Assembly (NCBI RefSeq): GCF_007990755.1 | Contig: NZ_BJXA01000064.1 | Span: 1-53,663, forward strand | DNA: 53,663 nucleotides | From: Nocardia ninae NBRC 108245 | GTDB lineage: Bacteria; Actinomycetota; Actinomycetes; Mycobacteriales; Mycobacteriaceae | Direction of reading: 5' to 3' | In this document: in pieces, positions 9,618 to 47,156 of the stretch | How positions within the stretch are numbered: position 1 is the first letter of the stretch | Layout of the letters: every line of letters begins with the position of its first letter | Translations under genes and position numbers: made by a program | Notes under the pieces: model-generated | Told to the model about the DNA's origin: nothing | Databases searched by the model: none | What the model saw: the letters and a program-made list of their open reading frames with translations, nothing else

Positions 9618-10100
9618 TCAGGGCAGGTCGGCGTAGAGCGACCATTGCACCGTCTTGGATGCGTCGGCGGCGAAGTAGCGCAGGAACGGGTGCCCGCAGT
9701 CGCAGCAGCAGGTGACTTCCCAGATGCCGAGATCTTCTTCGTGGGCGGCCAGCGGGTACTTGATCCAGTGCTGGCTGCCGTGAGATCGGCACCCGCTGAC
9801 GCCGAGAAACCTCGCGGCCTCAGCGCGGGTGTCCGGGAACCGGCCGAATCCGCCCGCGGTGCGCAGCGAGTAGCAGGCCGCCGCCTCGTCGGTGTCGAGC
9901 CACTTGCTCATGAACGCCGGACTGAACACCAGGGGCCGCTGATGTTCGGCGCCGGTGCCAGCGTTAAGCATCGCCGGTTCGAGCGCGCTGGCAGTGTGCT
10001 CACCTAGCTGGCGAGCCGCCTGAATCCCGCTGTGCAGCAGCTCCTCCCAATCGGGAAGCAGCACCTGGCCGTCCTCGGCGGCCGGTCGTTGGCCGATCAC
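9618..10100 (-). CDS. Hypothetical protein, last gene of transfer operon
   Basis: 160 residues. The start overlaps the stop of the primase-like gene (ATGA), making it the eleventh and last gene of the 19689-9618 operon. The C-terminal half has a short cysteine cluster, VTCCCDCGHPF, and aromatic residues (WSLYADLP) at the end. No domain was recognised. Conservation of the overlap suggests it works with the proteins upstream. Confidence 0.65.
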   Translation of the reverse strand: MIGQRPAAEDGQVLLPDWEELLHSGIQAARQLGEHTASALEPAMLNAGTGAEHQRPLVFSPAFMSKWLDTDEAAACYSLRTAGGFGRFPDTRAEAARFLGVSGCRSHGSQHWIKYPLAAHEEDLGIWEVTCCCDCGHPFLRYFAADASKTVQWSLYADLP

Positions 10101-13006
10101 AGGTTGCGCCCCCGTTTCTTTCCGAGGTTCATGCCCGCTCCCGACGCCGTGGAGCGTGCTTTTGGGGCGTCGCTGGGTTCGGTGGCCGCCCCGGCCGGGC
10201 GGGCCTGGGAGATGTCGGTCAACAGCAGTGCGGTGATCTGCTCGCGGTCCACACCGAGCGCGGTCAGCTCCTCCACGAGCTGGGTGCGGCGGATCTGGTT
10301 GTCCCAGGCCGGTGGGTTGCCGCGCGCGGCTTCGCGCTTGACCTTGGTGCGCTGGGAGGTCGTCGCCGCCTTCAGCGAGGAGGTTTCCAGTTGCCCGGCC
10401 ACGGCCATGACGTCTTCGGCGATCATGTTGTTGACCCCGGCCGTGGTCAGCCCGTCGCGCAACGCCTTCCGGTGTGCGGCCATCGCGTTGAGCCGGTCTT
10501 CGGCCTTGTCACCATCCAGCGCCGCGGATTCGCACTCCTTGCGCAACGCGACCAGGGCGTGGCGGACCGGTTCGAGTTTCGCGTCGGCCGGATCCAGCCC
10601 GGCGTCGGTGAGCACCTCGGTGATCTCCTGCGCGGCTTGCTTCGAGCGTTCGGCGGCGGCCTTGTGGTCGTGGCTGCGTTGCAGGCGATACCGCGACTCC
10701 TGATCAGCCCACATCGTCTGCGGTGCGACACCGAATCCGGGCTGCTCACCATCGGACATGGTCAGTCTGACCTGATGGCGTTCGATCGCTGTGAGCCCGG
10801 AGTCCTTGTGCGCCACAGTCTTTTCGACCTCGGCCTTGATCTCCGCGGCTTTGGTCTGGTCCTCCTCGCTCGCTGAACGGGCCAGCTTCGCGTACTCGGC
10901 GATCTGCTCGCCGAGCAGATCCTTGTGGACCGCGCCGGGCCACAACGGCGTCTGCGTGGTGGCCGGGGCCATCTTGATGTCCTTGCCGCGCTGGCGGGCC
11001 TTGTCGGCGTCCTCCTTCGACAGATCCGTCATTAGCTCGGTGAGCTGGCGGGTCACCTCGGTGGTGTCCTGCCCCAACGCCAGACGTCGCTGATACTCGA
11101 TCAGCGCGGTGTCGCCCTTGGCGCGCGCGTCCGAGCTCGCACCCCAGTTGGCCTCGCCGATGTTGGCGCGCGGGTCACCGGTCAGGTAGTCCATCGCGAA
11201 CAAAACCTTGTCACGATCGGCCGGGCGTGCCGAGGCCAGCAGCAGCTCGACGCGGGCCCGCGCGGACTCCTTCGTTGCTTCGTCCTCACGTGAGGCAGGC
11301 CCGGAGGTGCGCCGGTCGGACATGATCCGCGCCGAGGCCTTCGCGTACTCCTCGATCGCCTGGTAGGTGTGCTGGCGCTGGTCGTCGTCGAGCACAGCGA
11401 CTTCGGCGACGGCGTTGACCGCGAAGCGCTGGGCCATCGCGGCCCGCTCCAGCGCGGCACCGTTGGACCAGGCGTTGCTCACCACCCGATCCAGCGCGCC
11501 CTGTTCGAGGCCGGCCTCGATCTCCTCGACGTCGATTCCGTGCAGGTCGCGCAGTCCGGCCGCGAGCTGCTGGCGGGCCCGCTCGGCCTCTGGTGCGTCG
11601 TGGCGCCACGCGGTCGCGTCGTACCAGGCATCCAGGACATCGTCGGAAGACGCTGTCTTCCACCACTTCTCCGACCCGACATCGGTGAGGCGGACGGTGG
11701 CCATCTTCTTCTCCGCCTCGAACCGCTTCTCGGCGGCCTCGGCTTCGGCGGCCGAGATCTGGGCGGCGATCTTCGCCGACTCCGCGCGGCGCTGTGCGGC
11801 CGAGCGCGCCCACTCGGTCAGCAGGCCGAACATCATCCGGGTGAACATGGCCATTTCGCGGGCGGCGTGGTCGATATCGGCTGCGTGCTCGGTCACTGGT
11901 GGAACCTCCGTAATCGTGTGGTCCTCAACCGATTCCGGTTCAGGGTGCTGTTCGAGGTCAGCAGGCTGACCGTGGTCGTTGTCGTGGGAGGGCTGCTGCG
12001 GGGACGGGGAATGGTCGGCGGGCCCGGCGAGTGCGGCCGTCAGCGCCGAGTCCTCGACGCGGATGAACTCGTCGAGCTCGAGGCCGTGCCCGCAATCGAG
12101 GTGATCGGACAGGTCCTTGCCCGTCGCGGCCTCGACCACCAGCAGCTCCCCGACCCGGCCCTGGAGGAGCTGGGCGACGCGGGCGGCGTGGCGGTATCCC
12201 GGCTTGTCCTTGTCCGCGACGATCACCACCCGGGCGGCACCGCGCAGCTGGTGGGCGTGCTCGGGTCGGAAACTGCCCGCTCCCATGGCATTGCAGGTCG
12301 CGACCAGTCCGGCCGTCCTCGCGCGGTCGGCGTCCTTTTCGCCCTCGACGACCCAGATGGTTTCGCCCTCGGCGACGGCTTCGCGCACGGCGGGCAGGTG
12401 GTAGAGCACCGGGGCGAATCCGCCGCCGCTCCAGCGCCCGCCCGCGTCGCACTTGCGCTGCCGGAACACCTTTTCGGTGCCGTGCTCGTGCGGGATGTGC
12501 GAGCGCACGACCTCGCCGAGCGGGTGGCCGCGCTCGTCGGTGTAGAGGTAGATCCCGGCCTTGTAGCGGGCCCCGGTCACCTTCCCGAGCCGGTCGCGTT
12601 TGGACTCGACCGGGACAGCCTGCCCCTGCACCGGTGTGGGCGACCGGCCACCGTCACGGGCCTGGCCGCCGGTGCGGGATTGCCCGGCGCGTGGCCCGGT
12701 TCCGCGGCGCGGCACGTCGAACAGATCCCGCACGTCCAAACCGATCGCGTGCAGCACCTCTTCATCGGTGCAGGTGGTGAAACACCGCACGACGGTCTTG
12801 TGCTTGTCGGGGTCATAGATCAGGCCCAGCGACGGATCGTGATCGTCGTGGCCAGGGCAGCGGTACTTGGTCCACTCCCCCGCCTGCGAGGCCGGCCCCG
12901 GCTTACGGTGGTGCGCCACGGCGTGAGCGTCCAGCGCGGCGGTGATGCGGTCGAACGACGGCCGCGCGATGGCGGCCGCCATCCTCGATGGGTTCTGCCC
13001 ACTCAC
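10097..13006 (-). CDS. TOPRIM primase-like protein with long helical C-terminus
   Basis: 969 residues. The N-terminus has a CHC2-like zinc site (C50, H53 in CPGHDDHDPSL, then C75 and C79). Residues about 218-300 form a TOPRIM domain: catalytic E221 in WVVEGEKDADRA and the D-x-D pair in VVIVADKDKPG (D265, D267). This is the DnaG/phage-P4-like primase arrangement, without a visible RNA-polymerase core of DnaG. Residues 370 to 969 are almost wholly helical, charged and Ala/Glu-rich, with no helicase Walker motifs. A role in priming the transferred strand or plasmid replication is likely; the long tail may bind partners. It overlaps both neighbours by four bases. Confidence 0.8.
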   Translation of the reverse strand: MSGQNPSRMAAAIARPSFDRITAALDAHAVAHHRKPGPASQAGEWTKYRCPGHDDHDPSLGLIYDPDKHKTVVRCFTTCTDEEVLHAIGLDVRDLFDVPRRGTGPRAGQSRTGGQARDGGRSPTPVQGQAVPVESKRDRLGKVTGARYKAGIYLYTDERGHPLGEVVRSHIPHEHGTEKVFRQRKCDAGGRWSGGGFAPVLYHLPAVREAVAEGETIWVVEGEKDADRARTAGLVATCNAMGAGSFRPEHAHQLRGAARVVIVADKDKPGYRHAARVAQLLQGRVGELLVVEAATGKDLSDHLDCGHGLELDEFIRVEDSALTAALAGPADHSPSPQQPSHDNDHGQPADLEQHPEPESVEDHTITEVPPVTEHAADIDHAAREMAMFTRMMFGLLTEWARSAAQRRAESAKIAAQISAAEAEAAEKRFEAEKKMATVRLTDVGSEKWWKTASSDDVLDAWYDATAWRHDAPEAERARQQLAAGLRDLHGIDVEEIEAGLEQGALDRVVSNAWSNGAALERAAMAQRFAVNAVAEVAVLDDDQRQHTYQAIEEYAKASARIMSDRRTSGPASREDEATKESARARVELLLASARPADRDKVLFAMDYLTGDPRANIGEANWGASSDARAKGDTALIEYQRRLALGQDTTEVTRQLTELMTDLSKEDADKARQRGKDIKMAPATTQTPLWPGAVHKDLLGEQIAEYAKLARSASEEDQTKAAEIKAEVEKTVAHKDSGLTAIERHQVRLTMSDGEQPGFGVAPQTMWADQESRYRLQRSHDHKAAAERSKQAAQEITEVLTDAGLDPADAKLEPVRHALVALRKECESAALDGDKAEDRLNAMAAHRKALRDGLTTAGVNNMIAEDVMAVAGQLETSSLKAATTSQRTKVKREAARGNPPAWDNQIRRTQLVEELTALGVDREQITALLLTDISQARPAGAATEPSDAPKARSTASGAGMNLGKKRGRNL

Positions 13007-15303
13007 CTGCTGGCTCCACGCTCAGCTCTGCCACCCAGACCGAGACCGTGCGAGAGCGGCCGCCACCACGGCGCCGACGGCTCCACCGACTGCGTGTTCA
13101 CCGGAACCGGGAACTCCGGCGACGGCGCGACCGAATAAGACACCGGTGCCATCGCCTGCGGCACTGTCGGCCGCGCGGGTGTCATGCCGAGATCGGCGGC
13201 GAAATCCATTGCGGTGCTCTGCAACCGATCCCGATCCGCCCGCAACTCGCGCAGCTCCCGCTGATCGGAGATGGCCTGTGCCGCGGCTTTGTCGATCGTC
13301 GCTTGCAGGGTCTTCATCTCCCCGCGAGCGTGGCGGTAGTCCGTCTGCAGGCTCTGCCACTCCTGGAGGTGCTCGTGCGCGACCTCGGCAAGAGCAGCGA
13401 CGACCTCGTCCCGGTTCTCCCCCGCGAGCAGCTGCCCCGCCAGCGACGGGTCGTGAATGATCCGGCTCGCGGTAATGGTCGCCGCGCGACGTTGCTGGTA
13501 CTCCGAATCTCGATCTGGATCCGGCGCCTCGAACTGGATCTCCCCGGCGATCGCACGGCGCTGTTGGGCCGCCTCCTGCGCCTGCGCCACCTGCTCGGCC
13601 ATCACGTCACGCTCAGTGGTGTCGCGCTCGATGCGCTGATCCAGCCACGCCTGATACAGCTGAGGCGACCCGATCAGGTCCACGGTGCTCGGCCTGTCCG
13701 CACCGCCCAGCACGTTCGGGATATCGATCCGTTCACCGTGGACGAGTGCGGCGACCACGCGCTCGGCGCGATCCTGTTCGTCCTGGCTCAGGTTGTAGCC
13801 CTCCCGAACGGTGTAGAGGATCTCGGCTGCTGTGCTGTCGCGCTGTTCCTCCAGCAGGGCGAGCTGGTCGGCCTCGCCGTACGCGGAGTCGAAGTGGGCG
13901 CTCAAATCGTCGATCTCCTCGGCCGTCACCTCCAGTGCGGCGATTCGGTCGAGCAGCTCCTCGCGGCTGAGGAATGTGTTCTTCGCCTGCAGCTCGGTGA
14001 GCTCGTGCGGGTCGATCTCGATGCGCTTGAGTCCGGGGGCGTTGCGGAACTGCCCATCGCGGTCGATGCCGGGCGCTCGGTGTGCGCCGTAGAGGTTGTG
14101 CAGGCGCATGTTTCGTTCGGTCATCCACGTCGTGTAGGCGTCGGTGTTGGTGACCAGCTCCCACACCCGGCCCTCGGTGGCGATCTCGGGGCTGTACTCC
14201 CCCGCGGCGAGTGAAGCGATAACGCGTTCGGCGCGGCCGGCCTCCGAGGCGGTGAGGGTGCCGCTGTGGCGGGCGGTGGCCAGGATGTTCTCGGCCAGAA
14301 CAGCGAAGCGCTGCTCGGCACCGTCGAGGTTCTGGCTGCCCGAGCTCAAGCGCGTCGTGTCCATGAACGGGTCGGCGACGGCGGCGATTTCAGCGAAGGC
14401 CCGCTCGACACCGGCACGGTCGAGGATCTGGTGATCCTCGCGGGCCAAGCTGTCGGCGCGGAACGGGCGCAACCGGATGGCGTCGACGAACTCGCCGGCG
14501 CTGTTGGTCCAGTCCAGAGGGTCCGCGCTGATCGCGTGCTGGATCGACACCGCCCGCACCTGCAGCCAGGTTTGATAGGCATCGGGGTCGCAGGCCAGCT
14601 CCCACAGGCCCTGGCCCGCCGTGCCGCGTACCTGCTCGAAACTCACCGCCGACGCCACCAGGCGTTCGAGGCGGGCCGCTTCACCGGCGGAGACCACCTC
14701 ACCCTCGCGGATCGTCGACACGATCGCTTCGGCCCGCTCCCGCAAAAATATCTCCCAGGACCGGGCGTCGACCTCGTACTCCTGCGGGTCAGTGGTGACG
14801 TGCTCGACCAGCTCGTCGATGGTCAGGCGCAGCTCGTCACGGCTCATCTGCACGGCACGGCGGGGATCGGCGTTGATCGGCGCGAGGAACAGCGCGTCGG
14901 GGAACTCCTGGCCGATATCAGCGATGCCCGCGGCACTCAGCCACAGGTCGTTGCCCGCCTCGGGGTGCTCGGCCTGGGTGTTCACCCACGCCTCATACAT
15001 TTCCGGGTCGGCGATGCGTTCCCACGCGTAGCGCGACTCCCCGCCGTCGAGCAGCTCGGTGACCACGACCTCGGCGCGGGCGGCTTCCCCGCCGCCGAGC
15101 GCCTGGCGGGCGCGGATGTTGCCCAGGATCTGGGCTCCCAGCTCACGTGCGGAGCTGTCGACCATGGTGATCGGGCGGGGATCCTGCGGGTGCGCCACGG
15201 TGGTGTGGCGGCTGAGTTCGTAGATGGCCTCGATCAATTCGCGCCGGGTGAACGGCAGCGCGTCAGTGGTTTCCGGTGATGCGGGCGAAGAGACGTCCGA
15301 CAT
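13003..15303 (-). CDS. Large four-repeat protein of unknown function in the transfer operon
   Basis: 766 residues. Four copies of an unrecognised unit are visible at about 52-110, 190-250, 336-400 and 492-560. Each has a helix with I-x3-R/A, a Gly turn, 'E..RAE/RLERVVA', then 'WE..[AT][DN]P..Y..W...R' (for example WERIADPEMYEAW, WELACDPDAYQTW, WELVTNTDAYTTW). Units 1, 2 and 4 are preceded by an '[ST]R.EL...I' helix. After the repeats come a coiled coil (about 590-705) and a proline-rich basic tail. No catalytic motif. The ATG at 15303 follows GGGAGG; an in-frame ATG at 15345 lies within the upstream gene and is less likely. It overlaps DUF4913 by 41 bases and the primase by four. Confidence 0.75.
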   Translation of the reverse strand: MSDVSSPASPETTDALPFTRRELIEAIYELSRHTTVAHPQDPRPITMVDSSARELGAQILGNIRARQALGGGEAARAEVVVTELLDGGESRYAWERIADPEMYEAWVNTQAEHPEAGNDLWLSAAGIADIGQEFPDALFLAPINADPRRAVQMSRDELRLTIDELVEHVTTDPQEYEVDARSWEIFLRERAEAIVSTIREGEVVSAGEAARLERLVASAVSFEQVRGTAGQGLWELACDPDAYQTWLQVRAVSIQHAISADPLDWTNSAGEFVDAIRLRPFRADSLAREDHQILDRAGVERAFAEIAAVADPFMDTTRLSSGSQNLDGAEQRFAVLAENILATARHSGTLTASEAGRAERVIASLAAGEYSPEIATEGRVWELVTNTDAYTTWMTERNMRLHNLYGAHRAPGIDRDGQFRNAPGLKRIEIDPHELTELQAKNTFLSREELLDRIAALEVTAEEIDDLSAHFDSAYGEADQLALLEEQRDSTAAEILYTVREGYNLSQDEQDRAERVVAALVHGERIDIPNVLGGADRPSTVDLIGSPQLYQAWLDQRIERDTTERDVMAEQVAQAQEAAQQRRAIAGEIQFEAPDPDRDSEYQQRRAATITASRIIHDPSLAGQLLAGENRDEVVAALAEVAHEHLQEWQSLQTDYRHARGEMKTLQATIDKAAAQAISDQRELRELRADRDRLQSTAMDFAADLGMTPARPTVPQAMAPVSYSVAPSPEFPVPVNTQSVEPSAPWWRPLSHGLGLGGRAERGASR

Positions 15304-15841
15304 GGTTTTTCCTCCCATTGGTGGTTGTGGAGACAGCCCCGGCACCTGCGACGGCCGGGGAAGACAGAACCGCGCCGGGCGAAGCCAGCGGCAGCGGAGA
15401 CAGCACGCCGTTGGCGAAATGGCCTTTGACGGTGCAGTAGCGGAACGTGCCGGTGGGGTCGAGCAGCCTGTTCATGTGCGGGGTGCAGTGATCGCGCCAC
15501 CACACGCTCATGCCGGTCTTGCCATCCAGGCGAAGGTGCTCCCACGCCCGCCACATCGACTCGAACGTCGAGCAGGCCTCGGGGTGGTTCAACCACCACG
15601 GGCACCAGGCGATGTCGGTGGTTCCCTCGCCGACCTCGCGGGCGTACATCTTGGAAAACCACTCCACGACCCACGCGATGTGGTTCGGGTAATGCGGTGG
15701 CGGCGGCTCCTCCCCGCCCTGCCCGGCCGCGGCCGCACCGCCGGCCGTGCCGCCCTCGGCGGCTTCGAGTGCGTCGATACCGGCGAGCACCTGCTCGGTG
15801 AACAGGTCCTCGTCCAGGTCGTCGTCAGGGAACTGGGTCAT
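15263..15841 (-). CDS. DUF4913 domain protein
   Basis: 192 residues. An acidic, Ala/Gly-rich N-terminus is followed by the DUF4913 domain from about residue 50: 'WV.EWFSKMYAREV', 'AWCPWWLNHPEACSTFESMW', 'SVWWRDHCTPHMNRLLDPTG' and a final cysteine in 'FRYCTVKGHF'. The conserved Trp, His and Cys residues suggest a compact fold, function unknown, which is characteristic of actinobacterial conjugative elements and usually sits beside the coupling protein, as here. It overlaps the coupling gene upstream by four bases and the repeat gene downstream by 41. Confidence 0.85.
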   Translation of the reverse strand: MTQFPDDDLDEDLFTEQVLAGIDALEAAEGGTAGGAAAAGQGGEEPPPPHYPNHIAWVVEWFSKMYAREVGEGTTDIAWCPWWLNHPEACSTFESMWRAWEHLRLDGKTGMSVWWRDHCTPHMNRLLDPTGTFRYCTVKGHFANGVLSPLPLASPGAVLSSPAVAGAGAVSTTTNGRKNHVGRLFARITGNH

Positions 15842-17835
15842 GCCGCCCCCTCCGCTCGCTCATCACCGCTGTGCTGCGACGGGTCGATGCCGGGGAACTG
15901 CGCGGCCGCCAGCGCGGCCGCCTTCTTGGCGGCCGCCTTGATGTCTTCCTTTACGCGTGCGCCGTAGGGGCGATCCCAGTACGGGACCGAGGCGCACAGC
16001 ACGGCGGGAAAACCGCTGCCGTAGACGATCATTCGACCGCGCGGCAGTGCTTGGATCTCCGAGACCATCAAGGTCTGGCGCTCGACGAGCGAGCGTGACA
16101 CCGACCGCCCCGAGGCGCTGTGGGACACCGATCCGGTCAGCTCGTTGTGCGGGCCTATCGCTTCAGCGCGCTCACGCAGGAACCCGACATCGTCCAGGCC
16201 CGAGCCGAGCACACGGACGCTCGCCGCACCCCAGAGTGCTTTCATGCCTGCCTCACCCCAGCAGCGCGCACCCTGGGCCCAGGACTGCAGCACGGTCATC
16301 ACGACGATGCCGCGCGAGCCGAAGTGGCTGTATTTCGCGGGCAGATCGCGCCAGCGCACCACGTTGGCGGCTTCGTCGAGCACCGCCGTCAACGGCGTCG
16401 GCAACCGCCCGCCGTACGCGGCGGCCCGCTGGATCGAGGACTCCAGCACCGCGGCGGTGAGCGCGTTGAGGATCGGACCGGCCGACCCGGCGCCCTCCAT
16501 GGACAGCAGATACAGCGTCGAGGAGTCACTCGCGGCGAACGCCCGATGGTCGAAACGACGACGGTTGCCGCCGTGCTCGATCCACGGGCGTAGCTCCGGG
16601 GACTTGAGGATTCGGCCCATCTTGCGGGCGGTGCCGAACACCCCCGAGCGCTGCTTGGGATCGGAGTTGTACTCGCCGAACAGGCCTTTGGCGGCCAGGT
16701 GGTGCCCGGCCAGATCCAGAATCCGCGCCGGTTCGGTATTCGACTCGTTAGTCAGCCACTCCCACACCTGCGAGATCGGGCGATCCGCCAACGCGGCCGC
16801 CAGCATCAGCTGCGCCAGCAGCTCCTCGCCCGCCGGGTCGAAGAACGCGTCCTTCTTCGCGTCCTGGCCGTCATCGCTATCGGCGAAGTGCGCGGCCAGC
16901 TTCGAGGCGCGCTCCTCGGCACCCCACACCAGCGTCACCTCGACATCGCGATCACCGATGCCGGCGGGCTCGTCGACGAACACCCCGTCGGCGACTGCGT
17001 GCAGCTGTGTTTGCGGTTGGGGCAGTTTCGGGCGCTGCTCCGGGGCGATCACATACGACAGCGGATCCCAGCTCCACGGCTCGCTCTGTCCGGCTATGCG
17101 CTGGGGGTCGAACACGAAACACGGCCCGACTTCGGCACGCATCATCGACGTCGCCGCGACCACGTCACTCTTGTTCGAGGTGGTCAGCACCGACCCGGGT
17201 GCTTCGAGCACCGCCGGAATCACGCGCGAGGTCGACTTGCCCTGGCGCGGGCCCCAGATATCGACGTGCAGGTCCTCGTAGGAGCCGTAGAGCATGTCCC
17301 CGCCGAGCACCGGCATGCCGATCGAGACGCCGTTGCGTTGGGGGACAAGCTGTTTCGCGGCGACCTTCGCATTGGGGAACTTCACATCCAAGCGGTGCGC
17401 GGACTCGGCGACCGTGGACGCCAGCAGCGGCTTGAGCGCCCTGCCGCGACCCATGTACTGGGCCCGCTCGTCGATCGGGTGCCGCTCGAACTTCGGGCGC
17501 CGGCCTTTGCTCTTGCCCGTGTGCTGCCAGGGCTTGGCGCACGCATACTGCCAGCCCCAGGCGGAAAGACGCAGCGCCACCAGCGAGCCAACCGCCAGCG
17601 TTCCTGCCGCCGCCCAGGCCTGCCCCGACCACACGAGATCCTGCGTGACGCCCAGGTGGGTGGCCAGCGCGACCGGGTTCCACGGCACGTCCTGGGCCGG
17701 GCCACCGAACAATTCCGCCAACCGCAGCGACGCCGACGCGGCGAAGGACGCACCGCCGATCGCGCCGACCGCGATCACCGGCTTCCACGCGTCGATATCG
17801 GCGTGCTGGGCCGGGTCCTTCACTCGGCGATCCAT
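15838..17835 (-). CDS. TraG/VirD4-type coupling protein (T4CP)
   Basis: 665 residues. Two N-terminal membrane helices (about 18-40 and 70-92) anchor a cytoplasmic ATPase. Walker A is GPRQGKST at 195-202; Walker B is LTAVLDE at 482-488 followed by A-A-N. The region 'SRGIVVMTVLQSWAQGARCWG' is the conserved TraG/VirD4 C-terminal element. Coupling proteins bring the relaxase-bound strand to the secretion channel at the membrane. The start at 17835 follows AAGGAGG, one of the best ribosome sites in the window; the open frame beyond it is an overlap with the HNH gene. No VirB4 or channel gene accompanies it. Confidence 0.9.
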   Translation of the reverse strand: MDRRVKDPAQHADIDAWKPVIAVGAIGGASFAASASLRLAELFGGPAQDVPWNPVALATHLGVTQDLVWSGQAWAAAGTLAVGSLVALRLSAWGWQYACAKPWQHTGKSKGRRPKFERHPIDERAQYMGRGRALKPLLASTVAESAHRLDVKFPNAKVAAKQLVPQRNGVSIGMPVLGGDMLYGSYEDLHVDIWGPRQGKSTSRVIPAVLEAPGSVLTTSNKSDVVAATSMMRAEVGPCFVFDPQRIAGQSEPWSWDPLSYVIAPEQRPKLPQPQTQLHAVADGVFVDEPAGIGDRDVEVTLVWGAEERASKLAAHFADSDDGQDAKKDAFFDPAGEELLAQLMLAAALADRPISQVWEWLTNESNTEPARILDLAGHHLAAKGLFGEYNSDPKQRSGVFGTARKMGRILKSPELRPWIEHGGNRRRFDHRAFAASDSSTLYLLSMEGAGSAGPILNALTAAVLESSIQRAAAYGGRLPTPLTAVLDEAANVVRWRDLPAKYSHFGSRGIVVMTVLQSWAQGARCWGEAGMKALWGAASVRVLGSGLDDVGFLRERAEAIGPHNELTGSVSHSASGRSVSRSLVERQTLMVSEIQALPRGRMIVYGSGFPAVLCASVPYWDRPYGARVKEDIKAAAKKAAALAAAQFPGIDPSQHSGDERAEGAA

Positions 17836-26999: not shown

Positions 27000-27457
27000 C
27001 CGATGAGCTGCGACCGTTCGAGCCATGCCCGCCCGGGTTGGTGCATGGTGATGACGGGCCGATCGAGGCGTGCTCCGACATTCGGTGCGGTTTGCGCAGC
27101 GATCACCCCGGCGATCATGCGAGGCTCAGCGTCGGCGGCACGGTCATGGCGATCTGGCCGGCAGTGCGGCTGACCGAGTCGCGAGTGAGCGCTCTCGCGC
27201 AGCTGCTCGCCGCGTCGGCGGTGCTCGTCGATGCTGTCGCCAACGCCGAGACTGTCGCCACCCGCATCCGTGTCGAGCACGGCGATGACCCGGTGCTACG
27301 CCGACTGGCTGCGCTGTTCCTGCGGCAACTGCCTCGCTCGGACTATCTTCCCGTGACATCAACCTCCCGGCCCGGCGCCGCAGCACGAGAGTGGCGCGAA
27401 CTCCTCGAAGACGCCGCCCGCAGCCTGGGCGGGCACCACGAGCGGAGCTTTCAGTGA
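26996..27457 (+). CDS. Hypothetical protein of DUF2637 operon
   Basis: 153 residues. N-terminal part has EPCPPGLVHGDDGPIEACSD and IRCGLRSDHPGDHARLS, with three cysteines and histidines that could hold a zinc ion; a hydrophobic helical segment (VSALAQLLAASAVLVDAVAN) and a helical C-terminus follow. GGAGAGGAG precedes the ATG. The stop overlaps the GTG of the next gene (GTGA). No family recognised. Confidence 0.65.
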   Translation: MTDELRPFEPCPPGLVHGDDGPIEACSDIRCGLRSDHPGDHARLSVGGTVMAIWPAVRLTESRVSALAQLLAASAVLVDAVANAETVATRIRVEHGDDPVLRRLAALFLRQLPRSDYLPVTSTSRPGAAAREWRELLEDAARSLGGHHERSFQ

Positions 27458-29220
27458 CTACTCACCCGCACCACCTCGACAGGAGCGACCGGATGAAACC
27501 CGACACCCCTCACACCGAGACCCCGCCGGAGGTGCAGGCGCTGGCCGAGCAGCTGCACACCGCACGCGGGCGGCTGGCGCTGCTAAGCGGCGACGCTGCC
27601 GCGGTGCTGACCGAGGTGCCCTCCGAAGCCGAGCTCGAGGCCAGGCGCAATCAGGCGGAGTGGCGGCGCGGCGAGTTGCTCAAGGCTGAGCGTGCCGAGC
27701 TGGCCGAGCAGCTCGCGGCCGCGGCCGCGCTGCGCGAGGCGAACAAGAAAATCCTTGACGCCGACATCCGTGACGCGGTCGACGCGCGCCAGGCGCTGGC
27801 GCAGCAGCGGCGTGCGGAGACGCCGACCTCGACGGTGGCCTCGTTACACCGCTACAGCCGGTGGACGACACGCGGCGGCGCCGTCATCATCGCCGCGGGC
27901 CTGGTGTGGAGCGGAATCAATGTCCAGCAGAACATGGCGCCCGGCGGCGTGCACGACCCGTTGTTCTGGGCCTCGTTCCTCGTCGACGGCATGATCTCCG
28001 GTCTGCTCATCATCATCGCGCTGGGCACCGGCAAGGTTCGCGAGACCGGCGTCGAGCCCTCGACCGGGATCCGGGTGACCGAGTTCGCGTTGTTCGGCCT
28101 CACCTTGGTTCTCAACACCTACCCGCACCTGCGCGCCACCCACTGGTACGCCGCCGGCCTGCACGCTGTCGCCCCGGTCATGATCGGCGCGACGCTGGTC
28201 GCGTTGAACTACCTCGGTAAGGACTACGTCCGTGCCCGCGCCGAAACGGCCAAACTGATCGACGGCACGGTGACCGTGCAGCTGCCACAACTGGCGACCG
28301 TGCACACCGTGCACCCCACTCCCAGCTACCCGTCCGCGCCGGGGGAAACCGTGCACCGTGCGGCCGAGCTCACCGACTCGACCGTGCACCCCTCCCTCGG
28401 CCAGGCCGCCGAGACCGTGCACCGTGCAACCGAGCCCGGGACTGGAACCGTGCAGACATCGAGCACCGTGCAGCCGGAGACCGTGCACCGTGCAGCCGAA
28501 CCGGCCGCGGCCCCCGTAGCTGTGCACACCGTGGAGGACGAGGTGCACACCGAGCAGCACACCGAGCAGTTCGGTGACGACAGCCGCGCCGCGGTCACTG
28601 CGGCGAGCAACAGCGCTGCGGCATCGAGCCAGGCAGTGCAGGCGAGCACCCCTCATGCGGACGCACCTGTGGCGCCGAGGCGGGCACCGCGCTCGGTCTC
28701 CTCGACCGTGCAGACCCTCAAGGAGGAGACCGAGCCGAGCGTGGAACCCGCTCCCTCGACCGTGCAGCCGAGCCCGTCGGCCGAAGAGGTGCACGCACCC
28801 GTTGCGAGCACCGAGCAGGCGGCGACCGTGCAGAAACCGAGCACCGTGCACCCAGAGGCCACACTCGAAACCGTGCACCGTGCAGAAACCGAGCAGGCCG
28901 AAACCGAGCAGGCACCGGCGACCGTGCAGCCGGAGACCGTGCACCGTGCAGCCGAGCCCGCAACCGATCGGTACTCCGTCGAAGATGTCGAGTTGTGGCC
29001 CCTGGCCGTGGAGGTGCACGCTCGTCTCAAGCGCACCAAATTCAGCGTCGAGACCGTCGCGAAGGTGCTGATCGCCCACCGCCGCCAAGGGCTCGGTGTG
29101 GACCGCATCTACCGCGACAAGATCGGCCCACACCGCGACATCACCAGCAAATGGCTCGAAATCGCCGCGCAGATCGAGGCGGAACTCGCGCCGGTCATCA
29201 CCCTGCGCGAGCGTGGATAG
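27454..29220 (+). CDS. DUF2637-type membrane protein with long repeated linker and C-terminal helical domain
   Basis: 588 residues. An N-terminal coiled coil (about 20-115) is followed by four membrane helices (about 140-260) with the DUF2637 features 'WASFLVDGMISGLLIIIALG' and 'THWYAAGLHAVAPVMIGATL'. From about 265 to 500 comes a low-complexity linker built on 'TVHRAAE' and 'TVQ' units, coded by the repeated octamer ACCGTGCA. The last 80 residues (WPLAVEVHARLKRTKFSVET and 'HRDITSKWLEIAAQIE') resemble a helix-turn-helix. So the protein could tie DNA to the membrane, as Spd/Kil-type proteins may. GTG overlaps the previous stop; ATG 27493 is possible. Confidence 0.75.
   Translation: MTTHPHHLDRSDRMKPDTPHTETPPEVQALAEQLHTARGRLALLSGDAAAVLTEVPSEAELEARRNQAEWRRGELLKAERAELAEQLAAAAALREANKKILDADIRDAVDARQALAQQRRAETPTSTVASLHRYSRWTTRGGAVIIAAGLVWSGINVQQNMAPGGVHDPLFWASFLVDGMISGLLIIIALGTGKVRETGVEPSTGIRVTEFALFGLTLVLNTYPHLRATHWYAAGLHAVAPVMIGATLVALNYLGKDYVRARAETAKLIDGTVTVQLPQLATVHTVHPTPSYPSAPGETVHRAAELTDSTVHPSLGQAAETVHRATEPGTGTVQTSSTVQPETVHRAAEPAAAPVAVHTVEDEVHTEQHTEQFGDDSRAAVTAASNSAAASSQAVQASTPHADAPVAPRRAPRSVSSTVQTLKEETEPSVEPAPSTVQPSPSAEEVHAPVASTEQAATVQKPSTVHPEATLETVHRAETEQAETEQAPATVQPETVHRAAEPATDRYSVEDVELWPLAVEVHARLKRTKFSVETVAKVLIAHRRQGLGVDRIYRDKIGPHRDITSKWLEIAAQIEAELAPVITLRERG
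28273..28950 (+). repeat. Dispersed octamer repeat ACCGTGCA inside the DUF2637 gene
   Basis: By eye the octamer occurs 20 times exactly, several in pairs as ACCGTGCACCGTGCA. It encodes Thr-Val-His/Gln in one frame only. Such an array can expand or shrink by slippage, so the linker length may vary between isolates. Confidence 0.8.
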
Positions 29221-30318: not shown

Positions 30319-32112
30319 GTGATTCCGAAAGTCCTGCGCGGGCAGAAGCTCGGCGGGCTGCTGGTGTATCTGCTGGGCGCCGGTGAGCACAACGCGCACT
30401 CACAGCGTCACGTCATCGCCGGGTCGCCGACACTGATGCGCGACGGCTGGCTGGCGACCTTCGACGGGGACAAGGACAAGAAGGCATCGCGCGACACCGC
30501 GCTCGCGCTGGCGCGGGAAATGGACCTGCCGCGCAAGCTCTACGGAACACGGGTACGGATGCGCGCGCGCCCGCAGGCGTCCGCGCGCGGTGGTGGAGTC
30601 GATGTCGTCGAGCGTCCGGCGGCGGGGGAGAAGGGCGTGCTGCGGGACGCACCGGTGTGGCACTGCATCCTCGCGCTGACGCCGGACGAGGAGCTGAGCG
30701 ACGACAAGTGGCGCCAGGTCGTCGAGGATTTCATGGGCGAGATGGGGTTCACCGAGACCGACGAACGCGCCGGCGCGCGGTGGGTTGCTGTGCGCCACGG
30801 ACGTTCCGGTGAACACGGCGACGGCAACGACCATGTGCACATCGCCGCGAGTTTGGTCCGCGAGGACGGCCAGAAAGTCGACACCTTCGACTACGGGCCA
30901 GGTCACGCCCGCGGCGACTGGAACCGGGCGCAGGAGGCGTGCAACACCCTCGAACACCGCCACGGGCTGGTAGTGCTCGAGTCCCGGGAGTCCGGTGGCG
31001 GGATGAGCGGGAACTCGCGCGCGGAGATCCAGCGTGCCAAACGCGAGGGTCGGCCGGAGACCGAACGCGAGATGATGCGCAGGTTGGTGCGCACCTACGC
31101 GGCGGCGTCGAAGACCGAAGCGGAGTTCGTGCGCCGTGCGCTACGCGACGGGGCGGTGTCGCTACTGCCGTTCTACGACGCCGGGGACACGACCGTCGTG
31201 CGCGGCTACTCCGCGCAGATCCGCGCCGGCGACGGGCACCGGGGCCCGCGCCTCGGTGGCAGCAAGCTCGCCTCGGATCTGTCGATCGTCGAGCTGCGCA
31301 AGCAGTGGGACGACACCCCCGAGGCACGAACGGAGGCGCTCACGGAGTGGACGCGAGCACGGGGGCTGGCCGATACCGACCGTGAGGCGCGGCGTATCGA
31401 GGACCCTGCGCTGTGGAAGCGGATCTCGGCCGAGGTCGGGGACTGGAACAAGATCCTGAAGTCGATTCCGCCCGAGAACCACATCGAGTGGGCACAAGCT
31501 GCCGGTCGGGCCTCGGCAGTATTCGGGGCGTGGTCGCGACGCGTCGAGGGCGATCGGCCCGGCCCGTTCGCGGCGGCCGCCGCCGAGCTGGCGCGTTCGG
31601 CGCAACCGGTTCGCCCGGTCCGGGGTCCGCGGCCGCGCGCGGACCGTACACAGACCGGGCTGCGCGGTGTGACCACCTTCCTCGTGCAAATGGCTCGCAT
31701 CGGGGGTGACCCGGCAGCGGGGAATCTGCTGTTGCTGCAGCAGCTGATGCGTGCGATCGAGGCGATCGCCGAGGCGCACGCGGCCCGGGGAGAGGCTGAG
31801 CGGGCCAAACGGCTGACGATGGTGCTGCGTCAGCAGCTCGTCGACGTGCACCACGGTTACGCGGTCGCCTCCGGTACCTATCGGGGTCCTGCGGTCGGCA
31901 GCGCGGAACATCGCGAGCATCTGGCGCGTCAACGTGATGGATGCGAACCGTGGGCGTGGGTCACACCGGCCCGGTTGCTTGTGGCGCCTGAGCTCGCGCC
32001 GCAGCCACCGAAACCTGCAGCCCGGCCGACCTACCGCGAACCGGACCGGCCCGCCTACCTCCCGCCGGAGGGCCCGCAGCGCGGTGGCCCGGACCGTGGG
32101 CGCGGACGCTGA
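30319..32112 (+). CDS. MobP-type relaxase
   Basis: 597 residues. The relaxase domain is N-terminal: 'GQKLGGLLVYLLGAG' (motif I region, with Y17 as candidate nucleophile), 'HCILALTPDEELSD' and the metal-binding histidine motif HGDGNDHVHIAASLV at about 173-187, where H-x-[DN]-H-x-H is expected. After about residue 220 the protein is basic and helical without primase or helicase motifs. The enzyme would nick oriT and pilot the strand. GTG start at 30319 is preceded by a weak GGGGG site; coupling to mobC is likely. It ends with a proline/arginine-rich tail. A second, unrelated relaxase lies at 33343-38055. Confidence 0.85.
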   Translation: MIPKVLRGQKLGGLLVYLLGAGEHNAHSQRHVIAGSPTLMRDGWLATFDGDKDKKASRDTALALAREMDLPRKLYGTRVRMRARPQASARGGGVDVVERPAAGEKGVLRDAPVWHCILALTPDEELSDDKWRQVVEDFMGEMGFTETDERAGARWVAVRHGRSGEHGDGNDHVHIAASLVREDGQKVDTFDYGPGHARGDWNRAQEACNTLEHRHGLVVLESRESGGGMSGNSRAEIQRAKREGRPETEREMMRRLVRTYAAASKTEAEFVRRALRDGAVSLLPFYDAGDTTVVRGYSAQIRAGDGHRGPRLGGSKLASDLSIVELRKQWDDTPEARTEALTEWTRARGLADTDREARRIEDPALWKRISAEVGDWNKILKSIPPENHIEWAQAAGRASAVFGAWSRRVEGDRPGPFAAAAAELARSAQPVRPVRGPRPRADRTQTGLRGVTTFLVQMARIGGDPAAGNLLLLQQLMRAIEAIAEAHAARGEAERAKRLTMVLRQQLVDVHHGYAVASGTYRGPAVGSAEHREHLARQRDGCEPWAWVTPARLLVAPELAPQPPKPAARPTYREPDRPAYLPPEGPQRGGPDRGRGR

Positions 32113-33342: not shown

Positions 33343-36300
33343 CTACATCTCGATGCCGTGGTCTTGGCTGGGGCCGAAATCCGGGAGCTGGTGATAACGC
33401 CACGTGTGATCACGTGGTTGGGTCTGCTGCTTCGGGGTTTTCACCGCTGCGGTGATCGGTTCGTGGGCGGGGTTGTCCTGGTGGTGGATCTCCTCTCGAG
33501 CGCGGTCCTCGATCGTGCGCTGCTCGGCGGTGAGTGTGCTGCGCCGCTGTTGCTCGTCGAGGACTTCCTGGACGCGGGCGGCTTGATGGTCGGCGCGAGC
33601 CTGGCCTTGTGCTTGTCGGCGGGCTTCGCCTTCGACGCGATACTGGGCGTCGGCGAGAGCGGCCTGGCGAGTGTGCGCGTCGGCGGCCGCGGTGAGCGTG
33701 TAACCCCACATGGGGGCGGTGAGGCCGGTGGCCTTGGCGGCGGACTCGGCGACGAACTGCGCGACGGTGAGCCGCTTTTCGAGCGGTTCCAGCTCGTCGC
33801 GGGCTTCGTCGACCTCGGCCTGGGCGGCGGTGCGGGCACGGGGACGCCACTTGCTGGTGTTGTCGAAGGCTTGCTGTCGGGTGAAAAGCTCATGCCTGGC
33901 TTGGCGGGTTTGTTCTGCGATGAGTTCGGCGTGCGCGGCGGCAGCTTGAGCGAGGCGGATCGCGGCCGTCCGCTTGTCGAGGCGCTGGTGTTGCTGGCGC
34001 AGTTCATCGAGCTCGCTGGTGGCGCTGCGGCCGATGTGGTCGAACCAGTACGGGAGGCCGTGGTTCTCGTGGGATTCACTGCGGCGCAGCGACAGTTCGA
34101 TGTCGAGCAGGTTGTCGGAGAGCTGGCGGAGGTGTTGTGCGGCACGCAGTTCGGCGACGGTTGCGGCGAACTGTTCGTCGGCCTGGTGTTCGTCGAGGTC
34201 GGTGCTCATGCGCCAGCGCAGCGCGGCTGCGGGCTGCTCGTCGGGCAGTGCTCGGTCCGTGACGGCGTCGCGGGCGGCGGCGGGGATGTCGAGGCCGGCC
34301 GCGGCGGCGCGGGTCCATTCGGTGGCGAGCACCGGCCAATACGGGTCGGTGAGCAGGCGGGGTTCGAGGTCCGCGCCGAGGTGCTTCCATCGGCGTGTGT
34401 CGCCGTCGAGGTGGCCGAGACGGGCGGCGACTCGCTCGTCGAGCAGGTGCTGTTCGCGGCGTTCGGCGGCCGGGAACTGGGCGGGCCCGGTGAGGCGGCG
34501 GTCGTGGTCGGGGATCGCGTGGGCCGCCCGCCACACGGCCAGCTCGGCGGTCAGCACCGGGTCGGCGTCGGCGAGGCGTTGCGCCCACAGCGGCGGCGCG
34601 GTGCCGGTGCGCCACTGTCGCGTGGTCGTGGTGACCGCGTCGACCAGGTCGGCGATCTCGCGGTTGCGGGCGTGCAAGTGTTCACCGAACTCGGCGTCGT
34701 CCCGCAGTGCGGGCGGGATGTCGGGCAGCCAGCACAACGGCCCGGCCGTGGTCGAGTGTGTGCCGGTGGGGTCGATGCGCCAGTCGAGCACGGCGGCGCG
34801 GTCGTCGGCGGTGTCGAGCTCGCGGACATTGACGGCGTCGGTGAGTGCCTGGATCGGGTCGCGGCCGGTCAGCGCGAGCAGACCGAGGTGCTGGCGTAGT
34901 ACAGGCCAGGCGTCCTCGGCGGTGAGGCCGGGCACCAGCTGCTCGGCGGCCGCGGCGAGAGCGGCCTGGTCCTGCTCGCTGATGCGGTGGTCGACGGCCA
35001 CGCCGAGCGCGTCGAGGTAGGTGTCGACGGCGTGGGCGAGGCGCTGGTGTGGATCGGCATCGTGGCGGGCTTGGGTGGTGGCCGAGGTTTGGGTGCCGTC
35101 GCGGCCGAGGATCTCGGTCAGCATGTCGACCGCGGTCCGGGCGTGCACGGCGGTGTAGGTGTAGGCGGCGGCTTCTTCTCCGGTGCCTGCGGTAGCGAGG
35201 TAGAGGTAGTTTCCCGTGCGGGCGCGGGTGGCCAGGACATAGAGCTGGGCGCGGGATTCGCGGCCGGTGAGTACGCCGTGGCATGTGTCGACCGTGAGCC
35301 CTTGCGAGGAGTCGATGGTGTTGGCGTAGCCGAGCTGGATGTCGGCTCGCACATAGTCGGCGGGCATGGTGACCCGGCGCCCGGAGTCGAGGTGGGTGGC
35401 GGTGATCCGCCCATCGGCGTGCACGTCTTCGATGTGCCAGCGGTAGCCGTTGCGGACGTGATCGGTGGCAGAGATGCGCAGGCGGTAGTTGTTGCGGCGG
35501 GTGACGATGATGTCCCCGGCTGAGGCCGAAAGGCCGTCGGCGAGTTCGGTTTCCGGCCCGTGCAGGCCTTCGCGGGCGAGGCGGGCTGTGCGGGCCCGGC
35601 GGTTGAGACCGGCCACCAGCTCGCGTGTCGGTGCGAGCAGTGCGGTGTCGAGCCCGGCGGCGCGGTCGGCGTCCCACGCCGCGAACGCCTGCTCGGCGAC
35701 GGTGCCGAGGGTGCCGACCCGGACACGGGAATGGTCGGTGTAGTAGGCGATGGCGGCCGGGTCACCCTCGCGCAGGGCGAGGGAGGCGGCGCGTTCGCTC
35801 GGGTCGGCCATGCGCATCACCGTGGTGAGGGTCGAGGCTCCGGCGGCGGTGACGATGTCGCGCACGACGCCACCGGCGGCGACCGAGGCGAGCTGGCGGT
35901 CATCACCGACCGCGCGTACGCTCGCGCCGCGTTCGAGCAGCCATGACACCGCCGAATCCAGTTTCCGGGTGGGGGTTTTGGCGATTTCGTCGATGATGAC
36001 CAGCGTCTCGGGGCCGATCCCCTGGAGCCACTGCGGTGCGCGGGAGGGTTCCAGGGTGCCGGTGGCGAGTGCGTCGGCGAGGGTGACGAGTACGTCGATG
36101 GTGACGCCCGGTGTGCCGATTTCGCGGCCCAGGTGCGCGGCCGCCGATCCCAGTGGCGACATCGCGAGCACGTTGCCGCCCTCGGATGTCCATGCGCGCG
36201 TGAGGGTTTGCATCGCGGTTGTCTTGCCGGTGCCGGCGGGCGCGATGACCAGCTGCAGGCGGGCACTGGATCCGGCGAAGTCGCGTACGAGGGCTTGCTG

Positions 36301-38055
36301 GGCGGGGTTGAGGGTCTGTCCCTGGTGGTTGGCGGCGTACTCGATCAGCGCCGCGTCGACGGCGGCCGCGGTGATGGTGCGCCCGCCGGTGCGCAGGCTC
36401 GCGTCGACCAGGCGCGCTTCGGCGGCCACGATCGCGGGCGAGGTGTGCAGCAGCGATCCGGCGGTGGTGTAGACGCTGGTGCCGTCATTGCGGGTCCACG
36501 CCGCGGCGTCGGGCACGTGTTCGGGGGTGCCGCGCGGGGTCGAGTGTGGCGGCGTCAGCGCGGTATCGATGACCCGGTCGACCAGGGTGTGCCATTGGTC
36601 GGGGGCGATCTGGCCGCGTAGCTGGCGGTGGGTTTCGGCGCGGATGTGGTGTTCCTGCCAGGTCGCGCGGGTCTCGGCGACGGTGTCGACGACGTGGGCC
36701 GCGGTCGCGGCGATCCACGCGTCGGTGACCGTGTCCCGGTGGGGCAGTTGCTGGTTGAGCATGTCGGTGACCATGGCAGCCACTGCATCCTCACCGCCGA
36801 GTACCTCGACCGCGTCAGTTCGCCAGTCCAGGCGCTGTTCGGCGTGGGTGCGGGCGGCGGGCTTGCCGGTGCGGGTGCGCAGCGTGGCTTCCTGACCGAG
36901 ATCGAGGAGTTCGTTCGGGGTCGGTTCGCGGCCGTGGTCTGCCTGGAACTGACTCGCCAGGTCGGTCAGTTTGTCCTCGATCGCGGCCGCACGCTTGGAC
37001 CACACCCGCAGCAGATCGGTTCGTGCGCCGACGATTTCGCGGATCGGACGCTTGCCGGTGGGCGTGATCTCGGCGAACACCAGGCCGAGGGACTGCTCGA
37101 GGTAGTGCTCCAACCGGGTGTTGTAGAGCTCGGAGGCGGCGACGTTGTGGCGGTAGATCATGCGCCCGTCCAATGAGCCCCACTGGCCGTCGAGGCGGCG
37201 GACTTTGTTCGCGATGACGACATGCGTGTGCAGATCCGGGTCGCCGGCGCGGCTGTCGCGGTGGTCGAACATGGTCGCGAGCAGGCCCTCGACGTCGACT
37301 TGGCGCACGCTGTGGCGTCCCACGCGGGTGTAGACGGCGTGAGCTTGCAGGTACTCGAGGGCGTCGCCGATCGCGGCACGGTGAGCGGCCTCGATCGCAA
37401 CGCTGATCTCGCGCGGCGCCAACGCCCACAACGCGCTCACGCTCTTGACCGGGCTGAACGTGAGGTCGTACCCGGCGACGGCCTTCGTCGACGGACGAGA
37501 GGCTCGCGCGACCCAACCGGACAGCTCGCGGTCATCGCGTGGTGCGCGGCCGTGTTCGTCGGCGAACATCCGGCCGGCGACCTCGGTGCGGATCCGGGTC
37601 CGCTCGTCCTCGGGGATCGGCGCGTAGTCGACCGTGCTGCGGCCGCTGTTGTAGTCGGCATAGGCGTCGGCGCATTGCTGGCGGTAGCTGACCTCGGAAG
37701 GAATGTAGTCCCCGTACGGGCGGCCCAGGCGGGCCTGCTGCTCGGCGAACCGCTGGGCGTCTTTGGGTTTCGCGCCCAAGCGCAGCTGCTCGGCCTTGGC
37801 CGCGCGGATCATCGCGAACGCGTTCGGGTGCAGGCCGTGTCCGATCAAGGCCCGCATCTGCGCCTCGGTGACCTGCTCACCTGCCTCGATGCCGACTGCC
37901 GCCAAACCGGCACCCCACCAGCGGCCAGGGGATTCGCCGCGCTCGCTGTAGTAGCCGGACAAATCCTGCGTTCCGCGGTCGTTGGCATCGTTGGTCGCGA
38001 CGGAACGCATGTAGTACTCGTACCCGTCGCCACTCGCGATTTTAGCCAGCGACAT
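33343..38055 (-). CDS. traA: MobF relaxase-helicase (TrwC/TraA-type)
   Basis: 1570 residues. The relaxase domain starts MSLAKIASGDGYEYYMRSVA with tyrosines Y12, Y14 and Y15, and 'GYYSERGESPGRWWGAGL'. The three metal-binding histidines are H265, H276 and H278 in FDHRDSRAGDPDLHTHVV. A superfamily 1 helicase follows: Walker A APAGTGKT (605-612), Walker B VIIDE (686-690), and 'ANTIDSSQGLTVDTCHG' (motif VI region). The C-terminal 500 residues are helical and charged. It nicks and unwinds the transferred strand. The start at 38055 is decided by homology of the first residues; GTG 38058 is possible. It converges with 32742-33272. It is on the opposite strand and 14 kb away from the coupling protein. 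Confidence 0.95.
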   Translation of the reverse strand: MSLAKIASGDGYEYYMRSVATNDANDRGTQDLSGYYSERGESPGRWWGAGLAAVGIEAGEQVTEAQMRALIGHGLHPNAFAMIRAAKAEQLRLGAKPKDAQRFAEQQARLGRPYGDYIPSEVSYRQQCADAYADYNSGRSTVDYAPIPEDERTRIRTEVAGRMFADEHGRAPRDDRELSGWVARASRPSTKAVAGYDLTFSPVKSVSALWALAPREISVAIEAAHRAAIGDALEYLQAHAVYTRVGRHSVRQVDVEGLLATMFDHRDSRAGDPDLHTHVVIANKVRRLDGQWGSLDGRMIYRHNVAASELYNTRLEHYLEQSLGLVFAEITPTGKRPIREIVGARTDLLRVWSKRAAAIEDKLTDLASQFQADHGREPTPNELLDLGQEATLRTRTGKPAARTHAEQRLDWRTDAVEVLGGEDAVAAMVTDMLNQQLPHRDTVTDAWIAATAAHVVDTVAETRATWQEHHIRAETHRQLRGQIAPDQWHTLVDRVIDTALTPPHSTPRGTPEHVPDAAAWTRNDGTSVYTTAGSLLHTSPAIVAAEARLVDASLRTGGRTITAAAVDAALIEYAANHQGQTLNPAQQALVRDFAGSSARLQLVIAPAGTGKTTAMQTLTRAWTSEGGNVLAMSPLGSAAAHLGREIGTPGVTIDVLVTLADALATGTLEPSRAPQWLQGIGPETLVIIDEIAKTPTRKLDSAVSWLLERGASVRAVGDDRQLASVAAGGVVRDIVTAAGASTLTTVMRMADPSERAASLALREGDPAAIAYYTDHSRVRVGTLGTVAEQAFAAWDADRAAGLDTALLAPTRELVAGLNRRARTARLAREGLHGPETELADGLSASAGDIIVTRRNNYRLRISATDHVRNGYRWHIEDVHADGRITATHLDSGRRVTMPADYVRADIQLGYANTIDSSQGLTVDTCHGVLTGRESRAQLYVLATRARTGNYLYLATAGTGEEAAAYTYTAVHARTAVDMLTEILGRDGTQTSATTQARHDADPHQRLAHAVDTYLDALGVAVDHRISEQDQAALAAAAEQLVPGLTAEDAWPVLRQHLGLLALTGRDPIQALTDAVNVRELDTADDRAAVLDWRIDPTGTHSTTAGPLCWLPDIPPALRDDAEFGEHLHARNREIADLVDAVTTTTRQWRTGTAPPLWAQRLADADPVLTAELAVWRAAHAIPDHDRRLTGPAQFPAAERREQHLLDERVAARLGHLDGDTRRWKHLGADLEPRLLTDPYWPVLATEWTRAAAAGLDIPAAARDAVTDRALPDEQPAAALRWRMSTDLDEHQADEQFAATVAELRAAQHLRQLSDNLLDIELSLRRSESHENHGLPYWFDHIGRSATSELDELRQQHQRLDKRTAAIRLAQAAAAHAELIAEQTRQARHELFTRQQAFDNTSKWRPRARTAAQAEVDEARDELEPLEKRLTVAQFVAESAAKATGLTAPMWGYTLTAAADAHTRQAALADAQYRVEGEARRQAQGQARADHQAARVQEVLDEQQRRSTLTAEQRTIEDRAREEIHHQDNPAHEPITAAVKTPKQQTQPRDHTWRYHQLPDFGPSQDHGIEM

Positions 38056-38278
38056 CACCTCATCAACGGTACGCCCGCACCAAAAAGGCGTTGTGCGTTC
38101 GTTATCCAGGGAGCATGAGGTGTGACGATTTCGAAAATATATGCGCAGATAGATGGGATGCGGCGTAGTAGCAGTAGTGAATGCGGTGGGCTGCGGCAGT
38201 GCGAGCGTATGAGCAATTTGCCGATGAAGTGGGCGGATGACTGAATGCAATTTAGTGGGCCATCCGCCAGTCGTGTGG

Positions 38279-45630: not shown

Positions 45631-45724
45631 GCGCTGGTCGACCCGCACCGGATAACCGGAATCTTCTGTCGCACAACAAGATCGAAAGAAGATCTGTCGG
45701 TGGCCACCGTCATACTTCGTGGCT

Positions 45725-47123: not shown

Positions 47124-47156
47124 GTCCCGGACTGTACGAGAAAGGTCCGACAGGAC

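Follow-up and report, generated by a model that had tools for sequence, protein, structure and literature searches.

A repeated, predicted all-helical domain encoded between coupling-protein and primase genes on a probable Nocardia plasmid

Gene order at the locus

We analysed contig C64 of a Nocardia genome of 9.7 Mb. The window, meaning the whole stretch of DNA analysed, is the entire contig (53,663 bp), and a terminal overlap is absent. It encodes a ParA-like protein, a resolvase, a MobA/VirD2-like relaxase, a TrwC relaxase-helicase and a VirD4/TraG coupling protein. Since many of its genes are related to genes of the circular 58-kb N. asteroides plasmid CP082845, the contig is very probably a plasmid. 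The two relaxases of this single contig are encoded at 30319-32112 (+) and 33343-38250 (-); the MobA/VirD2-like relaxase is adjoined by a weakly NikA-like gene (17.6 bits, cut-off 27), and the TrwC relaxase-helicase has 1635 residues. A 609-residue protein encoded at 27391-29220 (+) gave no Pfam or NCBIfam match. It is related to a protein of the N. asteroides plasmid and also, split into two pieces, to sequence in the region of the single-unit gene of genome G075 described below.

The gene under study lies in a run of four genes on the minus strand, which follow in the order coupling protein, DUF4913 protein, repeat protein and Toprim primase:

15838..17829, minus strand: VirD4/TraG-type coupling protein (PF12696 98 bits, PF02534 61 bits); start set by homology, the longest open frame extending to 18069
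15263..15841, minus strand: DUF4913 protein of 192 residues (PF16259 106 bits)
13003..15303, minus strand: repeat protein of 766 residues, ATG at 15303; convincing family match absent
10097..13006, minus strand: Toprim primase-like protein of 969 residues

All neighbouring frames overlap, by 4 bp between the coupling protein and DUF4913 genes, 41 bp between the DUF4913 and repeat genes, and 4 bp between the repeat and primase genes. The start of the repeat protein at 15303 is backed by an N-terminus that is conserved in N. tenerifensis and N. asteroides.

Four related units in the repeat protein

Four units tile residues 18-575 of the repeat protein head to tail; beyond them lie a coiled-coil-like stretch and a conserved tail:

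14845..15252, minus strand: unit 1 (U1), residues 18-153
14431..14844, minus strand: unit 2 (U2), residues 154-291, modelled alone as all-helical
13969..14430, minus strand: unit 3 (U3), residues 292-445
13579..13968, minus strand: unit 4 (U4), residues 446-575, unmatched in the three-unit proteins of N. asteroides and G069
13006..13488, minus strand: C-terminal region, residues 606-766, with the coiled-coil-like stretch and the conserved tail

Pairwise alignments and held-out profiles confirmed the four-copy repeat that an earlier note on this DNA had read from the sequence. Local alignment scores were 67-131 for all six unit pairs, against 55-68 for the best of 1000 shuffles per pair. The self-comparison by profile that the note had proposed was done with each unit position left out in turn, the profiles being trained on the units of the other positions from the window, N. 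tenerifensis, N. asteroides and G069. Each unit was recovered at 38-59 bits, compared with at most 9 bits for shuffles (U1 to U4: 38.2, 58.7, 57.9 and 43.2 bits; best of 500 shuffles, 9.0, 7.4, 7.8 and 6.9 bits).

The unit had been put at about 60 residues. Alignment gives about 130-150 residues, and the 60-residue part is the core of this larger unit. A first helix with R.EL...I.EL is followed by a second with ..A..I....R, a third with EAARAERVVA.L, a loop, and a last helix with WE....DP..Y..W...R; a segment F.(D/N)A..L follows the last helix in U1-U3 only. The signature given in the earlier note (E..RAERVVA with WE...DP..Y..W...R) is degenerate: in the window protein, U4 lacks the first Trp and U1 the final Arg. 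The spacing of copies, given there as 138 to 156 residues, was 140, 147 and 160 residues between the tryptophans of the Y..W motif, the last value lying beyond that range. This Trp is conserved more than any other position of the unit, being kept in 25 of the 26 rows of profile A3, and conserved Arg and Glu positions are kept in 22, 23 and 21 rows. The Tyr is kept in just 15.

The note had also placed a coiled coil after the units. A heptad stretch is found at residues ~666-700; since shuffling of the C-terminal segment reached an equal score in 13 of 300 trials, the coiled coil is just moderately above chance. The tail motif EFPVPVNTQ.VEPS.PWWRP occurs in all four operon-linked proteins described below and none of the seven unlinked relatives having a complete C-terminus. 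The repeat protein has a net charge of -57 (K+R minus D+E), with +3 in the last 20 residues, and all 26 units in A3 are net negative (range -1 to -20). Its top 19-residue hydrophobic window averages 0.84 on the Kyte-Doolittle scale, and neither a strongly hydrophobic segment nor a recognised enzyme domain was found in it.

Family and fold searches

The whole repeat protein matched no Pfam family at E<=1. Its best NCBIfam match scored 13.3 bits (cut-off 90) and its best PHROGs match, to a minor tail protein family, 16.2 bits (E 0.011), so that no known non-repetitive family was assigned to the whole protein. When the 26 units were compared with Pfam, no family was matched by more than one unit at E<=1 (best E 0.011), and the PADLOC anti-phage defence profiles matched none of them at E<=1. 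No relative of the repeat protein was found among PDB sequences; the unit profile gave there a best E of 0.032, to an enzyme without evident relation. Fold searches of PDB and BFVD gave no convincing match.

AlphaFold2 predicted unit 2 alone as all-helical (pLDDT 74.5, pTM 0.67). This prediction and the lack of a convincing family match in the searched databases agree with the earlier proposal of a folded domain belonging to no named family. Structures differing between the units had been named as an outcome contrary to a common domain. In a tandem model of two units (excluding units 3 and 4), the main helices are in equal order in both, at low confidence (pLDDT 63.3, pTM 0.51). Tandem all-helical units in a soluble protein resemble helical repeat scaffolds such as TPR and HEAT, but the present unit is 130-150 residues long and has no match to such Pfam families.

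The term DUF4913 was not found in any paper of the collection searched, and the titles and abstract openings of papers on such plasmids, operons and adaptors (including PMC3218068 and PMC7251119) held no description of the repeat protein. As far as tested, the units form an undescribed domain family, but plasmid proteins that are confined to one lineage and have no known role are common.

Operon-linked carriers

The repeat gene occupies an equal operon position in four carriers: the window, N. tenerifensis (L007), N. asteroides (L008) and genome G069 (L032). The window and N. tenerifensis proteins, which are 89% identical, have four units each, and those of N. asteroides and G069 have three. 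The gap in the N. asteroides protein covers approximately the last part of unit 3 and the greater part of unit 4.

Between the window and N. tenerifensis, the repeat gene has a dN/dS of 0.31, above the values of its neighbours (primase 0.20, DUF4913 0.19, coupling protein 0.09), and a dN of 0.065 compared with 0.017-0.026 for these genes. The repeat gene is under purifying selection, which is looser than that on the neighbouring genes.

In a tree of 26 units, whose long branches leave the deeper forks unsure, the U2 units of the four operon-linked proteins cluster (95/98), as do their U3 units (95/99), and their U1 units fall in a nine-row group with G025 and G156 units (99/99). U4 is known only from the window and N. 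tenerifensis. The position-wise clustering indicates that the array predates the split of these plasmids.

Related operons without the repeat gene

Eight plasmid records with a related coupling protein were examined, namely seven Nocardia plasmids with eight sets of coupling protein, DUF4913 and primase and one Rhodococcus plasmid. A primase match of at least 80% of the query occurred in 11 plasmid records, of which eight (CP082845 and seven others) were examined and three of N. farcinica (CP086602, CP031420 and CP133582) were left out. Nine related sets of coupling protein and DUF4913 (eight from Nocardia and one from Rhodococcus) lack the repeat gene, and tblastn of the repeat protein against all 72,556 plasmid records retrieved CP082845 only. 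The gene is thus accessory and not essential to such operons. In plasmids like pNF2 (NC_006363), the gene order is equal and all three proteins (coupling protein, DUF4913 and primase) are related to those of the window, but the repeat gene is absent and the DUF4913 protein is longer. The second set on pNF2 includes just a short coupling protein. The DUF4913 and primase genes adjoin directly in the eight Nocardia sets, without an intervening gene. On the Rhodococcus plasmid p4, DUF4913 is followed by a 270-residue protein (L057 7274-8086, minus strand), which matches the C-terminal half of the Nocardia primase in two pieces and is too short for a whole primase.

The DUF4913 protein has 189-192 residues in all four carriers, whereas it has 239-270 in all nine sets without the repeat gene, two of which encode an identical DUF4913 protein. 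Most of the difference lies N-terminal to a shared WC[PT] motif, which is preceded by 76-78 residues in the four carriers and by 126-150 in the nine others, the carriers being 48-74 residues shorter there. By eye, the additional stretch looks helical. The length difference is as if a part had been exchanged. Since the four carriers look like one clade, the presence of the repeat gene and the shorter DUF4913 may represent one evolutionary event. Two further leads were dropped: alignment did not clearly show that the coupling protein has a C-terminal extension specific to carriers, and the EFP common to the repeat-protein tail and several DUF4913 ends is too short to count.

Relatives elsewhere in Nocardia

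Units were detected by profile A1 in 7 of 150 Nocardia genomes, the window's included, and the family by profiles A3 and A7 in 8 of 148. The A1 scores are unbiased, whereas A3 and A7 scores are inflated for members found with A1 because both profiles contain them. Contig C71 of genome G025, initially retrieved in a BLAST search with the protein of the window (E 8e-13), encodes three clear units, one weak unit and the start of another at the contig end; its A1 scores of 94-108 bits for the clear units are high by construction, since its units helped build that profile.

Among six distant sets, the best of 300 shuffles scored 4.2-11.3 bits, and unrelated proteins reached 20-28 bits with A3. Four of these sets exceeded both levels with A1: G156 C3 (one clear unit at 46.8 bits plus weaker ones), G025 C52 (38.0 bits plus weaker ones), G075 (34.2 bits for a single unit in a protein of 166 residues) and G156 C4 (30.1, 18.1 and 15.9 bits). 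Units in G025 C8 (25.7 bits) and G025 C12 (19.2 bits) were above shuffles alone and are tentative in view of the level reached by unrelated proteins. Left out of A3 were several weak matches, namely the third and fifth of G025 C71, the first and fourth of G156 C3, the fourth of G156 C4, the first and second of G025 C52, and the G025 C12 unit; the N. tenerifensis (four) and G069 (three) units were left out of A7.

Single-unit proteins elsewhere, for which the earlier note had suggested a profile search, do exist. In G075 and G145, the unit gene lies downstream of an ATPase gene, and a weakly MobC-like gene lies upstream. The single unit of the 657-residue G145 protein scored 27 bits with A3, which is at noise level; it was accepted because of a BLAST match to the G075 protein (E 5e-11, which holds for that small comparison) and because the neighbouring ATPases (31% identity over 582 residues) and MobC-like proteins (33%) are related. 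The upstream proteins resemble MobC replication-relaxation proteins weakly (15.3 and 19.6 bits, cut-off 200). The G075 ATPase resembles HerA/FtsK weakly, with AAA_22 at 27.2 bits (cut-off 27) and DUF87 (21.3 bits) and FtsK_SpoIIIE (17.2 bits) both under cut-off, and the NCBIfam scan of the G145 ATPase gave no match. On the 10-Mb contig of G075, a 147-residue gene product is encoded between the ATPase and the unit gene; no gene was called between them on the 363-kb contig of G145.

The TraG/TraD C-terminal domain was not found on the contigs of G156 C3, G156 C4 and G025 C71, C52 and C12, some of which are short or cut. On the contig of the tentative single-unit gene of G025 C8 (L038 9351-10262, minus strand), a coupling-protein domain and a DUF4913 domain are encoded ~23 kb away from it. 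A possible single unit in G156 C2 (L080 6332-7372, minus strand) scored 27.5 bits with A7, at noise level, and has long low-complexity flanks; its contig also encodes a coupling protein and DUF4913. One tentative unit, at 19 bits with A1 compared with 4 for shuffles, lies in a 2079-residue open frame at L039 4320-10556 (plus strand) that has no clear Pfam match.

Searches beyond Nocardia

Wide searches with A3 covered 397 order, 396 phylum and 401 family genomes, among which were the window's own genome and some Nocardia, and scored the best 10 candidates per genome. Seven matches outside Nocardia were obtained at 20.5-28.1 bits. All look unrelated by eye: a DivIVA-like protein, two peptide deformylases, cytochrome oxidase subunit 2, a TetR regulator, an ABC protein and a long presumed transposase. 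A second match within the genome from which the window comes (G000:C38, 20.6 bits) was rejected, as it overlaps a long frame on the opposite strand that looks acyl-CoA synthetase-like by eye. No convincing member was thus found outside Nocardia among the best 10 candidates per sampled order, family or phylum genome, a depth at which absence outside Nocardia is not proven. A comparison of the G075 protein with 269 genomes had no positive control and shows nothing.

Phage records gave no match, and viral contigs gave no relative of three single proteins, in a comparison that reaches close relatives only. Plasmid records matched the window, G025 C71 and G156 C3 proteins in CP082845 only, and the G156 C4 and G145 proteins and the G075 ATPase in none.

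Possible roles of the repeat protein

The gene neighbourhood leads us to favour, tentatively, a role of the repeat protein as a cytoplasmic adaptor or scaffold beside a DNA-transfer ATPase. This reading is favoured because two settings adjoin an ATPase of DNA-transfer type and because the protein has no strongly hydrophobic segment or recognised enzyme domain; a cytoplasmic location is suggested by the absence of a strongly hydrophobic stretch. It would be a soluble acidic protein composed of three or four tandem all-helical domains, a coiled-coil-like stretch and a tail. The units may act as a helical platform on which a partner (the relaxosome, the primase or the DUF4913 protein) is held beside the coupling ATPase, at which the C-terminal tail would anchor the protein. 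Further points in favour are the overlapping frames, the conserved gene order, the shorter DUF4913 protein of carriers, the tail motif specific to operon-linked proteins and the purifying selection. Against this reading speak the nine related sets that do without the gene, the contigs of relatives on which the TraG/TraD C-terminal domain was not found, the faster evolution of the repeat gene, and the finding that none of the 24 window ORFs scanned with Pfam encodes a VirB4-type protein, which leaves the plasmid's transfer route itself unproven.

In type IVB secretion, according to PMC7251119, IcmS, IcmW, LvgA and DotN dock beside the TraG-family ATPase DotL and bring substrates. The likeness of the repeat protein to these adaptors concerns the proposed role only: they bind a C-terminal extension of DotL, whereas the repeat protein has tandem units, and no relation in sequence or fold was shown.

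The repeat protein may instead be plasmid cargo or a housekeeping protein, for example in regulation or partition, which lies in the operon by chance and has no role in transfer. The nine related sets without the gene are consistent with this, as are several relatives on contigs where the coupling-protein domain was not found. However, the reading frames overlap on both sides in the window, the gene order is equal in four operons, and in two other elements the unit gene follows that of an ATPase. We consider this reading unlikely, although it deserves to be kept in mind.

A role as a passenger, exported through the coupling protein with the DNA to act in the recipient (it might, say, be an acidic decoy that draws off a defence protein), seems to us improbable. 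The strong acidity of the protein, the net negative charge of all 26 units in A3, the arginine-bearing C-terminal tail, the faster evolution, the patchy presence and the adjoining primase gene would fit such a role, primases being a class of protein that is transferred in some plasmid systems. However, tails of +4 or more occur in 5 of 25 N. asteroides plasmid proteins and 3 of 20 window proteins, so that the +3 tail is no evidence by itself; the units have no PADLOC match, and their net charge varies widely.

The earlier suggestion that the domain binds a ligand through its Trp/Tyr/Arg set is very improbable: the Trp and the Arg and Glu positions are conserved, but helices would equally be expected to keep such residues for packing in a bundle core or for salt bridges, the predicted unit is a helical bundle without a convincing fold match, and the Tyr is kept in little more than half of the rows.

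A broader form of the adaptor reading is speculative, and we give it little credence. The units might be a new docking domain, present in one to four or more copies, on VirD4/TraG-type and HerA/FtsK-like ATPases of Nocardia mobile elements, in which the copy number would set the number of partners held and which would replace the lost N-terminal part of DUF4913 in one plasmid clade.

Actinobacterial transfer operons contain conserved genes without a known role, such as DUF4913. To these the repeat domain adds a defined and testable accessory part, of which the three- and four-unit forms and the single-unit relatives make a natural length series. If the adaptor reading is true, it bears on how these plasmids choose the transferred material; if not, the protein is one of many lineage-specific plasmid proteins.

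A further observation concerns the primase of N. asteroides (L008 41892-44861). The protein encoded after it (44897-47401) is 27% identical over 442 residues to the C-terminal half of the primase. The two share the tail RRTT.GAGV.L..KR, which suggests that both may be docked or exported alike.
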